From Haloferax litoreum (GTDB taxonomy: Archaea > Halobacteriota > Halobacteria > Halobacteriales > Haloferacaceae), in NCBI RefSeq assembly GCF_009674605.1, contig NZ_WKJO01000003.1, forward strand, positions 62,001 to 126,000: 64,000 nt of DNA, in the 5' to 3' direction. The notes under the pieces were generated by a model. The model saw only the letters and a list, made by a program, of their open reading frames with translations. It was not told the origin of the DNA and ran no database searches. The position numbers were made by a program, and so were the translations under genes. This document shows, piece by piece, positions 15,779 through 23,477 of this stretch. Each line of letters starts with the position of its first letter. Within the stretch, counting starts at the first letter, position 1.

Positions 15779-16594
15779 ATGGCAGACGAACACACGAACG
15801 GTTCGCCGCGGACCCTCAAGACGGTGTCTCGTGCGTTCGACGTGGTTCGGGCGTTAGAGGAGTTAGACGGGGCGGGAGTGACGGAGTTGGCAGACCACCT
15901 CGACCTCTCGAAGAGCGTCGTCTACAACTACCTGAGCACACTCCGCGAGGAGAAGTTCGTGGTGAAGGAGGGTGACACCTACCAACTTTCCCTGCAGTTC
16001 CTCCTCGTGGGCGAGTACGTGCGCTACCAGAACATCCTCTACCGAATCGGAAAGCCAGAGATAGAAGAACTCGCCGAGAAGACGGGCGAGTACGCCCACT
16101 TGGCCACAGAGCAACACGGACTCGGCGTCAACCTGTACAAGGTGAGTGGAGAGACTGCCGTCGGGAGCGACTATCAGGTGAACAAACTCCAGCGAGCAGA
16201 CTACCTGCACTTCTCTGCGACTGGCAAAGCCATTCTGGCGCACCTCCCACGTGAGCGTGTCGACTGGATTATCGACCAGTACGGACTCCCGGCGAAGACA
16301 GCACAGACGATTACCGACCGCGAGGAACTCTTCGACGAGTTAGAGACGGTCCGCGAACGCGGGTACTCGCTCAACGACGAAGAGGAGATAAAGGGTCTCC
16401 AAGCAATCGGCGCCCCCGTGACGAATCGACACGGCCGCGTCCTCGGTTCCATCAGCGTCTCTGGGCCCGTTCGGCGGATGAAGCAACCCGAGTACCACCA
16501 GAACCTCATCGAGAGCGTCGTCAACACCGCGAACGTCATCGAAGTGAACGTCAACATGGAAGAGTCGGACGACGAGTTTCCGACGTTCAGCTAA
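15779..16594 (+). CDS. IclR family transcriptional regulator
   Basis: 271 residues. An N-terminal winged helix (about 10-75: TVSRAFDVVRALEELDG, VTELADHLDLSKSVVYNYL) and a C-terminal ligand-binding domain (about 90-255: LHFSATGKAILAHLPRERV, GLQAIGAPVTNRHGRVLGSISVSGP) are intact. IclR proteins sense small metabolites and regulate neighbouring catabolic operons, so this is the probable local regulator of the importer, amidotransferase and amidohydrolase genes. No binding site can be assigned with certainty; the 13278-13296 palindrome is the best candidate. Confidence 0.93.
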   Translation: MADEHTNGSPRTLKTVSRAFDVVRALEELDGAGVTELADHLDLSKSVVYNYLSTLREEKFVVKEGDTYQLSLQFLLVGEYVRYQNILYRIGKPEIEELAEKTGEYAHLATEQHGLGVNLYKVSGETAVGSDYQVNKLQRADYLHFSATGKAILAHLPRERVDWIIDQYGLPAKTAQTITDREELFDELETVRERGYSLNDEEEIKGLQAIGAPVTNRHGRVLGSISVSGPVRRMKQPEYHQNLIESVVNTANVIEVNVNMEESDDEFPTFS

Positions 16595-16967
16595 CGACGC
16601 AACCCCGTTACACGAGTATTCTTGTAAAGCCTCGAGCGGGTCACCGACAGTCCGTCGGAGTTCACAAACTGCGAACCACGCAGTGGGAGTTTGGTCGATG
16701 GCGACACGACCACTCAGCGCCGCTTCACGGCCACGCCGACTCTTCTCGCGTTTCTCTGCCCAGAAAGGAGAGTTTCGGTCTGGTACTGCCGACAACGACT
16801 CCGAGAGGACAAATCTACACGACTGAACGATTCTCTCGGGTCGGCGACAACGAGACTGAGTCGTTCGACCAAAAGTCACCAATCGAACTGTGTTTCGCGC
16901 TTTTTCGGCAAGATATTTTCGATATCAGAACAGAATATAGACAAACAAGAGGCACAGTCTCGAAGAG
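16595..16967. other. Convergent intergenic gap between IclR and sph
   Basis: No gene supported. A short GC stem (CCGAC...GTCGG, about 16646-16661) lies just beyond the IclR stop. The last 70 bp before the sph stop are AT-rich. Confidence 0.5.
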
Positions 16968-18887
16968 TTATATTTCAGTGACTCTCGTATGACTCTCGTC
17001 GAGTGCTGCTGCGTCTTCGGGGAGGAGGGCGACGACGACGTACTCGGCGTGTTCGTGCACGTATTCGACCAGTGCAGCGATTCGCTCGGAGTCGATAGCT
17101 TCGAGTGAGTCGAGAAGCATGAACGGAAGTCGTTCAGCGACGTCGTGGACGAGGTATCCGGCGAGGCCGAAGACGAGACCGATGACTTCACGCTCGCTTT
17201 CACTCAGGTGGTCGACCGTGTCCTCGTAGACGGACCCAGACTCGGTCTGCCGGACGATGTGGAGGTTGAACTGGCTTTGTTCCTGTGTGCGTCCACGCCC
17301 AGAGCGTTCCCGACGGACTCGCTCGATCCAGACGCGTTCGATGTTTTCGTACTGGAGAATGTCCAGTACGCGTTCCATGTGGTCGTTGAACGATTCGACT
17401 GCGTCGGCCTCGATACGGTCGATTCGGCCGCGGAGTTCCTGAATCTCGTCGTCGATTTCTGCTCGCCGCGCTTCGTGTTCGGCGAGTTCGTCTCGTTTCA
17501 TTCGCGCTTCGTCGAGTTTCTCACGGACGCGTTCTCGTTCGGTTTCGAGTCGCTCACGTTCGAGTTCGGCGCGGTTCGCTTTGGAGTGGAGTTCGACCAA
17601 CTCGTCCGTCTCGTCGTCTACGTCCTCGGCTTTCGCTTCGACGGTCGTAATCTCCTCGCGGAGTTCGTCTTGCCGTGCTTCGAGGTTCTCGATTCGGTCG
17701 AGTGTCTCTTCGCGTTCGGCGACGGTCTGTTCTAACCGAGACGAGAGTTCTCGGCGACGATTTCGGCGTTCTTCGATGGTGTCCAGTCGAGCGGAGAGGT
17801 CGTCGATTTCTTCGCGGGCCGTCCGTCGGTCCGCGGCCAGTGACGCACGGTACTTTTCGAGGTGTTCGACGGTCGCTTCGATGGTCTCCGAGGAGACTTC
17901 GGACCCACAGGTCCAACAGACGACCTGGTCGCCACCGAGGAGTTGGTCGGTGACACTGCCGCCGTCGTCCTCACCACGAAGCGCGTCCGCAACGTCACTG
18001 CTCCCGCCCGAGAGCATCGACTCGTTCACGCGAACGATGTTCTGAATCTCGTTCATCTGCGATTCGAGTTCGCGGACACGTTCACGTCGATTCGACAGTT
18101 TCGATTCGAGTTCAGAGGGCGAATCGGACGACTCGTCGGGAAGTTCGTCCAGTGCCTCGCGGATGTCTTCCTCGTCGTCTCGGAGGGCTTCGAGACTCTG
18201 GCGCTCGGTTTCGAGGCGGAATCGGACGTTTTCGAGCGTCGAACGCAAGTCGTTGAGTCGGTCGAGCAGTTCGTTGTCGCCAGTGTCCGAACGCTCGGCC
18301 GCCTCGATTTCGCCTTCCAGTGCTTCGAGTCGCTCGCGAGCGTCTTCGATTTTGGCGTCGAGTTCTGCCTCGCGTTGCTCCAGGTTCCCAATCGACCGTT
18401 CCAGCGAGTCTGCTTCGTTCAGTCGCTCGTCGAGGTTTCGACGCTCTGCTTCCAACTGCGTAATCTGGGCTTCGATGGCCGTGGTGTCGACCGGACGCAT
18501 GATGAGTTCGCGCAAGTCGTCGCCACGTTCGACGGCCCGACGGGCCTCGTTCGACTCCAACAAGAACGCGAAGAGGTCAGCGAGTTCGGGGTCAGACAGA
18601 TACGGGTCGCCCTTCGTGACCGTGTTCGACCCCTTTCGACGGAGGACACGCGTAAACGTCTCGTCGCCGACTGTGAGGCTCACCTCACCTTCGTCCGCGT
18701 CGGCCTTCAGCGACGCCCGATTGCTTCCGAGGGCAGCCATCAACGCCTGCAGGAACGAGGTTCGGTTGGTAGCGTTACGCCCGACGAGAATCGTAATCCC
18801 GGGCTCGAATTCGACGTGAGTTCGTTCGATTCCTCCGATATTCCGCGCCTCGACGGTGACGCCGGCAGCGCGACTCGTGACAGTCAT
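16968..18887 (-). CDS. sph: Archaea-specific SMC-related protein (Sph), Rad50-like coiled-coil ATPase
   Basis: 639 residues. The N-terminal head has an atypical P-loop GRNATNRTS (36-44) in place of GxxGxGKS. Two long coiled-coil arms (about 135-310 and 335-530) flank a CWTC motif at 324-327, almost exactly in the middle, like the zinc hook of Rad50. The C-terminal head has a signature-like LSESEREVIGLVFGLAGYL and a Walker B LPFMLLDSLEAID. This is the archaeal Sph family. In Haloferax volcanii an sph gene lies next to rdfA, the same arrangement as here, so this is probably the Sph3 type. Divergent from rdfA with 102 bp between. The role may be in chromosome organisation or shape signalling; the biochemistry is unknown. 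Confidence 0.88.
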   Translation of the reverse strand: MTVTSRAAGVTVEARNIGGIERTHVEFEPGITILVGRNATNRTSFLQALMAALGSNRASLKADADEGEVSLTVGDETFTRVLRRKGSNTVTKGDPYLSDPELADLFAFLLESNEARRAVERGDDLRELIMRPVDTTAIEAQITQLEAERRNLDERLNEADSLERSIGNLEQREAELDAKIEDARERLEALEGEIEAAERSDTGDNELLDRLNDLRSTLENVRFRLETERQSLEALRDDEEDIREALDELPDESSDSPSELESKLSNRRERVRELESQMNEIQNIVRVNESMLSGGSSDVADALRGEDDGGSVTDQLLGGDQVVCWTCGSEVSSETIEATVEHLEKYRASLAADRRTAREEIDDLSARLDTIEERRNRRRELSSRLEQTVAEREETLDRIENLEARQDELREEITTVEAKAEDVDDETDELVELHSKANRAELERERLETERERVREKLDEARMKRDELAEHEARRAEIDDEIQELRGRIDRIEADAVESFNDHMERVLDILQYENIERVWIERVRRERSGRGRTQEQSQFNLHIVRQTESGSVYEDTVDHLSESEREVIGLVFGLAGYLVHDVAERLPFMLLDSLEAIDSERIAALVEYVHEHAEYVVVALLPEDAAALDESHTRVTEI

Positions 18888-18929
18888 GCATGTTACCAGT
18901 GAGTATCCATAGATAATAGTTCGTATTTG

Positions 18930-18951
18930 ATTACACCCGTATCGGTGTAAT
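18930..18951. promoter_or_regulatory. Perfect 8-6-8 inverted repeat centred between sph and rdfA
   Basis: ATTACACC-cgtatc-GGTGTAAT. Its centre (18940-18941) is within 2 bp of the midpoint of the divergent sph-rdfA gap. This geometry, one turn between half-site centres, fits a dimeric regulator controlling both promoters. Neither neighbouring protein has an obvious DNA-binding domain apart from RdfA's cysteine cluster. Confidence 0.6.
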
Positions 18952-18989
18952 GGAAACGGTTATGCTCGTCGGTCGATTCGGTTGGATAC

Positions 18990-19583
18990 ATGGCAGACGA
19001 GCGACCGAACCCAACGAACTCGAAAGTCGGGCGACTCATCGAGTCCCACGGATTGAACGGACTCGGTGAGGAGTTGGAGAATCGGTGGACCGCCGACGAA
19101 GACGCAGACAGTCTCCGGACCCTCGCCGACGTGTTTAACCACGAGTTGTTGAAAGCCGAAGCGACAGACGCCGGTCTCGACCTGCTCGACGGTGAGGTTG
19201 CGACGTTCTACGACGCACTCGTCGACGACGAGGCGACGGGTGCAGAGCGGACTCGTGTCCGTGGCCGACTCGAACGGGCCGGTATCGACGTCGACAAACT
19301 TCAGACCGACTTCGTCTCGCATCAGGCGATACACACGTACTTGACTTCGTACCGGGGGGCATCCAAAGAACGCAAACGGAGCGACCCGAAAGAGCGTGTC
19401 CAGCGACTTCGTGGGCGACTCGTCGCAGTCACCGAGAGCGCGCTGGAATCGGCGGTGAATCGAGACGACATCGTGGTCGGGTCCCCCGACGTTCTCGTCG
19501 ACGTGCAAGTGTTCTGTGCCGACTGCGGAAGCCAGTACGGGTTCGACGAACTGGTCGAACGCGGTGGGTGCGACTGCCAGTAA
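18990..19583 (+). CDS. rdfA: Rod-determining factor RdfA family protein
   Basis: 197 residues starting MADERPNPTN...KVGRLIESHGL, the start shared by haloarchaeal RdfA proteins. The N-terminal half is acidic and helical (LADVFNHELLKAEATDAG, a central VDKLQTDFVSHQAIHTYL segment), and the C-terminus has a small cysteine cluster (CADCG and CDC) likely to bind zinc. RdfA is needed for rod-shaped cells in Haloferax volcanii, and its gene neighbours an sph gene there. The molecular activity is unknown; a regulatory role is suggested by the lack of membrane segments. An AT-rich palindrome (19712-19727) follows the gene. Confidence 0.85.
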   Translation: MADERPNPTNSKVGRLIESHGLNGLGEELENRWTADEDADSLRTLADVFNHELLKAEATDAGLDLLDGEVATFYDALVDDEATGAERTRVRGRLERAGIDVDKLQTDFVSHQAIHTYLTSYRGASKERKRSDPKERVQRLRGRLVAVTESALESAVNRDDIVVGSPDVLVDVQVFCADCGSQYGFDELVERGGCDCQ

Positions 19584-22232: not shown

Positions 22233-23477
22233 GTGAACTGGTCTCGGAAGTCTCTGGACGACCTCGAATCGTTCTACTGGGATACCATCGCCCCCGCGAT
22301 GGACAGAGACGGGATGAACCCGACGCGAGACGTCCCCACCTACGAGTGGTTGACCGACCACGGATGGTCGGGAATCGCTTACGCGTTGCGCGAAAAACAC
22401 GACCTCACGCCGCGACAGTTCTTCGTCGACGTGGTCGGCCTCGGCGACGACGAGACAGACGACGGGTACGAGTGGCACATCGAAGACGACGCGACCATCG
22501 AGGCGTTCGAATCGTACCTCGACATGCTCGAATCCCGTCGTGGGCTGGCGGAATCGACGCTTCCGACTCGACGCACGCACCTCGCGCGGTTCGCCCGCGT
22601 CTACCGTGACCTGCACGGCAGTGCCGACCTCCTCGCTGAACTCGACGATAGAGACACCGAACCCGACGAGATTGCGCGGTGTCTCGACGTCTTAGACGAG
22701 TTCGACGCCGACCTCTCGACTGACGGGACGAAACTCAAGTACCTCCAGACGGTCCGGGCGTTCTACGAGTACCTCGTCGACTTCCGGCGGGCACGCTACA
22801 ATCCCGTCGAGAACGCCGCGAAGCAGTTTCGCTGGGAACAGGGTCAACCGGACAACAGAACGATGACCGCCACACAGGTCCGGGCGGTGTACGCCGCCGC
22901 GACGGACCTCGAAGACCGGTTGCTCGTTCTCGGACTCGCCGGGTGGGGCCTTCGCCCGAACGAACTCGCGTCACTCGACGCCTCACAACTCAGTCTCACG
23001 GGCGACGACCCTCACATCACGTTCGAGGCGCGGAAGAACGGCCCCGGTACCGTCGCACTCCTCTACGGTGTCGACGCCGTGGCCGACCGAATCGACGCAC
23101 TCTCGGACGACGACTGGAACGGCTTCCTCTTCCCGTCGTCGCGGTCGGAAACGGGGCACATCGCTCGCGAGACGGTCAACCGGCGGTTCAAACGACTCGC
23201 CGACGATGCGAACGTGACGGTCGATGGCGAGACGCCGACTGCGAAACTCTGTCGTCGGTTCTGGTACACTGCGTATCAAGAGGCGGTCGACGACATGCTC
23301 TCGCAGTTAGAGGGCGTCGCCGCAGACCAGGGGTCGAAGAGTACCGAAGTCGTCATGTCGAACTACCTCTCCGAGGAGCGTCGACGCTCGTTCCGCCGAC
23401 AGGCGATGCGCGAGAAGTTGGCTGCGGTGTTCGAGTCCGATACCGACGACGCCGCCGAACAGGCCATGATAAACTGA
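22233..23477 (+). CDS. Tyrosine recombinase/integrase-like protein
   Basis: GTG start at 22233, 414 residues. A SAM-like core-binding domain (about 85-200) precedes the catalytic domain (about 210-395). Catalytic candidates: Arg241 in GWGLRPNELASL, Lys268 in ARKNG, the box normally HxxR as KLCR (338-341), and Tyr378 in VMSNYLSEERR. The His-to-Lys change in box II is non-standard. The first 80 residues (SLDDLESFYWDTIAPAM, SGIAYALREKHDLTPRQFF) look like a haloarchaeal DNA-binding extension. No attachment repeats, tRNA or phage genes are nearby, so it may be a resident Xer-like enzyme or a solitary relic. Confidence 0.8.
   Translation: MNWSRKSLDDLESFYWDTIAPAMDRDGMNPTRDVPTYEWLTDHGWSGIAYALREKHDLTPRQFFVDVVGLGDDETDDGYEWHIEDDATIEAFESYLDMLESRRGLAESTLPTRRTHLARFARVYRDLHGSADLLAELDDRDTEPDEIARCLDVLDEFDADLSTDGTKLKYLQTVRAFYEYLVDFRRARYNPVENAAKQFRWEQGQPDNRTMTATQVRAVYAAATDLEDRLLVLGLAGWGLRPNELASLDASQLSLTGDDPHITFEARKNGPGTVALLYGVDAVADRIDALSDDDWNGFLFPSSRSETGHIARETVNRRFKRLADDANVTVDGETPTAKLCRRFWYTAYQEAVDDMLSQLEGVAADQGSKSTEVVMSNYLSEERRRSFRRQAMREKLAAVFESDTDDAAEQAMIN

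Follow-up and report, generated by a model that had tools for sequence, protein, structure and literature searches.

RdfA is required for rod formation in Haloferax volcanii, and its biochemical function is unknown (PMC10869688). The experimentally studied locus of this species, HVO_2174-2176, consists of rdfA, followed by sph3 and the HalOD1 gene ddfA (PMC10869688). Sph is one of the archaea-specific SMC-related proteins (ASRPs), as is the chromosome organiser ClsN (PMC9389158), and no DNA sequence directing an ASRP is described in the literature examined. A further sequence, TATCA(N4)TGATA, has been reported as the CsmR motif (PMC13286277). In the literature searched, neither DNA binding nor an operator was reported for the RdfA family, and an operator motif of XacR, which was sought for comparison, was not found in the literature examined. 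Among the autoregulatory helix-turn-helix proteins, LacI-type regulators carry the recognition helix VSYQTVSRV.

The rdfA gene in the window (the whole stretch of 64,000 nucleotides analysed here) codes for a clear member of the RdfA family (PF21811, with HVO_2174), matching the profile with 231.6 bits over residues 11-197 at a cut-off of 27. As in most known loci of the family (PMC10869688), it is accompanied by a gene for an SMC-like partner: its divergent neighbour, sph, matches the curated NCBIfam equivalog model NF045487 of the ASRP (Sph/ClsN) family. In the literature, the family figures as a rod-determining factor; the window protein is a plasmid paralog. The host, a Haloferax close to H. 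profundi, has the replicons C1 (2.98 Mb), C2 (322 kb) and C3 (257 kb, carrying the window), each with exactly one rdfA homolog, and the C3 paralog shares only 32% identity with the chromosomal RdfA of the same genome. The features referred to below are as follows.

15779..16594, + strand: gene of an IclR-family regulator; linkage to sph/rdfA also seen in about half of the rdfA loci
16607..16628, no strand: weaker second motif copy GTTACACGAGTATTCTTGTAAA (one mismatch), flanked by the 3' ends of iclR and sph
16968..18887, - strand: sph, coding for an ASRP (NF045487, 665 bits, above cut-off)
18910..18924, - strand: BRE/TATA-like element ACGAACTATTATCTA preceding the sph ATG by about 28 bp (sequence inspection)
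18930..18951, no strand: 22-bp palindrome ATTACACCCGTATCGGTGTAAT with the core ATTACA-N3-GTAN-N3-TGTAAT, proposed as RdfA operator
18952..18965, + strand: BRE/TATA-like element GGAAACGGTTATGC preceding the rdfA ATG by about 28 bp (sequence inspection)
18990..19583, + strand: rdfA paralog (PF21811, 197 aa) with a predicted helix-turn-helix at 101-107/111-121 containing FVSHQAIHTYL
Loci L049, L186, L187 and L188: CsmR motif, about 113-115 bp upstream of the start of the RdfA profile match

The plasmid rdfA-sph pair and its chromosomal counterpart

The AlphaFold2 model of the window RdfA (mean pLDDT 94.6) predicts a helix-turn-helix with pLDDT values of about 97 for the helices 101-107 and 111-121, the second of which starts exactly at residue 111. 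Four cysteines (176, 179, 194 and 196) are invariant and may form a zinc site. We found neither a fold match nor a sequence relative of RdfA in the PDB, no further Pfam domain above cut-off, no Pfam match to LacI or any other helix-turn-helix family, and no RdfA in phages.

The IclR and rdfA-sph genes sit inside a catabolic region of the window (6714-27203), which contains genes for a peptide ABC transporter, a GATase, an M20 amidohydrolase and an amino acid permease as well as hydantoinase A/B-like genes. Orthologs of the window iclR gene are in place in H. profundi (99%) and H. marinum (95%), and across 79 genomes IclR genes near rdfA-sph pairs occur on either side and in varied orientations. 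A gene for a XerC/D-like tyrosine recombinase (22233-23477 in the window) is located a few kb from rdfA in the window, H. mucosum and H. mediterranei (L113, L344).

The chromosomal rdfA-sph pair is arranged head-to-tail and matches HVO_2174-2176 in its gene order, with a HalOD1 gene next in line as seen at the chromosomal-type pairs L186 and L187 from two other Haloferax. The window pair differs from this type in being divergent, in its location on a 257-kb secondary replicon and in having no HalOD1 gene among the neighbours examined. At the chromosomal rdfA locus no palindrome of the window family was found, and an exact CsmR motif is present upstream of chromosomal rdfA in 4/4 Haloferax; this motif is likewise a promoter-proximal palindrome but differs in sequence and spacing, and it is absent from the plasmid sph/rdfA gap. 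The window site would therefore control the plasmid paralog, and there is no support here for the previous suggestion from the sequence-only reading that it belongs to the rod/disk switch.

The palindrome in the divergent gap

The gap between sph (start at 18887, - strand) and rdfA (start at 18990, + strand) spans 102 bp (18888-18989). The inverted repeat ATTACACC-CGTATC-GGTGTAAT that the sequence-only reading had noticed there is exact at 18930-18951, and its centre at 18940.5 is indeed located within 2 bp of the gap midpoint at 18938.5. Because 91 of 5000 dinucleotide shuffles of the gap (1.8%) also gave a perfect 8-bp inverted repeat with a spacer of up to 12, the repeat alone is mildly unusual and represents weak evidence. 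By inspection, BRE/TATA-like elements flank the palindrome directly on both sides, and that of rdfA is partially conserved in the ortholog alignment. Their distance of about 28 bp to the respective start codons suggests two leaderless promoters back to back, and the rdfA and sph promoters are thus probably leaderless and divergent.

The decisive evidence for the site is its conservation rather than the repeat itself. We compared the orthologous gaps of the window, H. profundi, H. marinum, H. mucosum, H. elongans, H. larsenii and plasmid pHME505 of H. mediterranei, and the palindrome is kept in 7/7 of these Haloferax orthologs at a constant place, 60 bp before the rdfA ATG, whereas its absence from them would have spoken against the earlier proposal. 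H. mediterranei, a species in culture whose plasmid sequence is published, shows the same site and gene pair; its RdfA is WP_004060965.1. In an alignment of six orthologous gaps from six species, all 12 columns of the ATTACA/TGTAAT arms and three of the four central columns are invariant, compared to none of the six remaining columns of the site and 22 of the 80 columns of the gap outside it. The inner CC/GG bases vary, reading TA..GT in H. marinum and CC..GA in H. mediterranei. With invariant arms and centre and variable columns elsewhere in the site, the true motif is ATTACA-N3-GTAN-N3-TGTAAT, as read from the alignment; the arms first described were accordingly two bases too long on the inside, and the conserved GTA of the centre had been missed. 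Further copies of the motif occur in the convergent iclR/sph gap of H. profundi and H. marinum and just 3' of sph in H. mucosum and H. mediterranei, which are without the window-type iclR.

A dispersed family of sites and the predicted RdfA recognition helix

The search for further copies in the genome, which had been recommended with the first description of the repeat, returned nine exact matches to the family pattern RTTAC-N5-TA-N5-GTAAY (i.e., RTTAC-N12-GTAAY). All nine are located on the megaplasmids C2 and C3, which represent 16% of the DNA, and none on the chromosome C1; they are scattered across both megaplasmids and show no cluster at rdfA. Hundreds more copies were found in other haloarchaea, nearly all of them intergenic and concentrated at rdfA, sph and IclR-type genes. 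The palindrome with a central GTAC is frequent across 79 genomes of the family, with control counts for the reversed pattern of about zero in most of them, and 83 rdfA loci (1.03 Mb) contained 59 sites versus 2 control matches. A search with all 5-bp arm words picked out the spacer of 12 with central TA for ATTAC, GTTAC and ATAAC (56, 27 and 22 counts, respectively, versus 0-0.3 at control spacings). This family and the likely binder encoded beside the site had both escaped the sequence-only reading.

Among 200 classifiable sites, 199 lie outside called genes. Upstream of rdfA they are found at a distance of 32-34 or 49-57 bp, and upstream of sph at 64-66 bp; in genera other than Haloferax, the site covers the TATA region of rdfA with its centre 32-34 bp before the ATG. 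No orientation bias was seen, and the shares of sites in tandem, divergent and convergent gaps correspond approximately to the shares of intergenic DNA. About a quarter of the sites fall into convergent gaps, in which promoters would not be expected, and these are not explained by a plain operator. Sites are also present at IclR genes, often 3' of them: copies in convergent gaps just downstream of iclR genes were seen at C3:18111/18170, C3:217668/217718 and C3:78607 and at many other IclR loci, sometimes in pairs 50-60 bp apart.

Across haloarchaea, the half-site type follows two residues of RdfA, 111 and 115, which are contained in the motif FV[ST]xQA[IV]xTYL and mark the start of the predicted recognition helix. 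Proteins with H111 and H or Y at 115 occur with RTTAC, those with R115 with RTAAC, and those with R111 with RTGAC half-sites. R115 was paired with RTAAC in 23/24 loci, and any other residue at 115 with RTTAC in 73/74. The R111 class, which has neither RTTAC nor RTAAC nearby, showed ATGAC..GTCAT in 3/5 loci; strict sites of this kind were found in the genomes G021, G059 and G027 and once in G058, while a loose RTGAC pattern searched genome-wide remained at control level. At the level of whole genomes, 38 with only H111-type RdfA contained 262 TT and 19 AA sites, 14 with only R115-type RdfA contained 5 TT and 25 AA sites, and those with neither H- nor R115-type RdfA contained 14 TT sites, 11 of them in G027. 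A partly blind check was provided by G027, where two ATGAC palindromes were found before the helix of the adjacent RdfA was read as SRQAIH. Twelve annotated plasmid records new to the analysis yielded ten loci with sites, and the rule held in nine of them, in one case via a weak and distant site.

There are exceptions and limits to this rule. It is broken in the loci L224, L158 and L347, many RdfA loci show no site, and G027 contains 11 RTTAC sites, yet its sole rdfA is of the R111 type and broken. This gene spans the ends of contig C5 (L303, L304), and its frame is interrupted at the contig end. On the RdfA tree, parsimony requires only two to three changes of specificity, one of which is forced by well-supported branches. 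The counts therefore overstate the independence of the co-variation, and a formal independent-contrast test had too few independent pairs for significance. Moreover, equally strong co-variation is seen for other RdfA columns beyond the helix (e.g., match column 159), and Sph probably co-evolves as well.

Candidate binders of the palindrome and meaning for the RdfA family

The strong linkage of the sites to IclR genes at first favoured an IclR-family regulator as the binder, such as the product of the gene at 15779-16594, with rdfA and sph as its targets. The four IclR genes of the genome are all located on the two megaplasmids with motif copies near each of them; a site was present within 1.5 kb in 23/34 IclR loci, compared to one match of the reversed pattern, and still in 17 of the 26 IclR loci without rdfA or sph nearby. 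The number of sites tracks that of the IclR genes (rho 0.83), an IclR gene lies within 6 kb of 39/83 rdfA loci, and G027 has both IclR genes and RTTAC sites but no RdfA of the matching type. Nevertheless, the site is retained without the window-type IclR in the loci of H. mucosum, H. elongans, H. larsenii and H. mediterranei, one half-site type dominates each genome despite many diverse IclR paralogs, and IclR relatives with near-identical recognition helices (SKAT[IV]HSHL) occur with RTAAC in some genomes and with RTTAC in another. No IclR column predicted the half-site type. We therefore discarded IclR as the binder on the ortholog and co-variation tests and now regard it as unlikely, although RdfA as the binder does not account for the linkage unless the IclR clusters constitute an RdfA regulon.

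The palindromes might alternatively serve a DNA-organising complex of RdfA and Sph as loading or centromere-like sites, functionally similar to ParB-parS-SMC, with promoter control as a side effect. This is consistent with the family relationship of Sph to ClsN, with one rdfA homolog on each of the three replicons, with the confinement of the exact copies to the megaplasmids and with the sites in convergent gaps. We nevertheless consider it quite unlikely: the copies are dispersed instead of clustered at rdfA, their constant distances from the rdfA and sph starts indicate promoters, and neither RdfA nor the scanned window neighbours match a ParB-like profile. The ParB-type CTPase and the parS sites clustered at its locus that mark a ParB-parS partition system were thus not seen among the genes scanned. 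The low number of independent specificity changes and the situation in G027 would be compatible with a third DNA-binding protein common to these plasmids, with RdfA co-varying by shared ancestry only, but this is very unlikely given that the co-varying residues start the predicted recognition helix and that genomes without H- or R115-type RdfA are nearly siteless apart from G027. Finally, a chance repeat or an RNA hairpin or terminator is hardly credible, even if shuffled gaps occasionally yield an equally good repeat. As far as sequence data allow, the footprint refutes such readings: the site is conserved in all seven orthologs, the inner bases, which would lengthen the stem, are variable and do not pair in H. 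mediterranei, whereas the outer arms and the centre are kept, and the site is located upstream of both presumed start points.

The palindrome is real and conserved, and based on the fixed distance to rdfA, the palindrome family and the half-site following two residues of the predicted recognition helix, we consider it likely that it serves as an RdfA operator common to the divergent rdfA and sph promoters. An RdfA dimer would bind it with one half-site per subunit via the helix 111-121. In Haloferax, the bound site would abut the BRE/TATA elements of both promoters, and we propose that one operator may thereby set rdfA and sph expression together. The site over the rdfA TATA region in other genera favours autorepression, suggesting that RdfA may be a gene regulator which also controls its own gene. 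Of the coordinated control originally postulated for this gap, a putative symmetric regulatory site for both genes is thus retained without the rod/disk part. The megaplasmid copies, mostly beside IclR-type genes, may represent a wider RdfA regulon or further loading sites for RdfA and Sph. In functional terms, the proposed system resembles the autoregulatory LacI-type operators in having a dimeric-looking palindrome at the regulator's own promoter, a residue governing specificity where the recognition helix begins and a potential arginine-guanine pairing in the RTGAC class. The likeness is limited to function, as RdfA has neither a Pfam match to LacI nor any fold match in the PDB.

As a more tentative possibility, RdfA may act as a sequence-specific partner of Sph, reading the 22-bp palindromes by residues 111 and 115 versus half-site base 3 and guiding Sph to megaplasmid loci. 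The rdfA-sph pairs would then be replicon-specific modules for DNA organisation and gene control, and the chromosomal rod-shape pair would be one specialised copy. What is new here is that DNA binding with a readable specificity code is predicted for the RdfA family. If this is true, the RdfA regulon would be predictable in any haloarchaeal genome, and RdfA autoregulation could be tested with a 22-bp probe. The shape phenotype would become approachable as a matter of gene regulation or DNA organisation, beyond the cytoskeleton, and the palindrome would represent the first candidate sequence directing an archaea-specific SMC-related protein to DNA.
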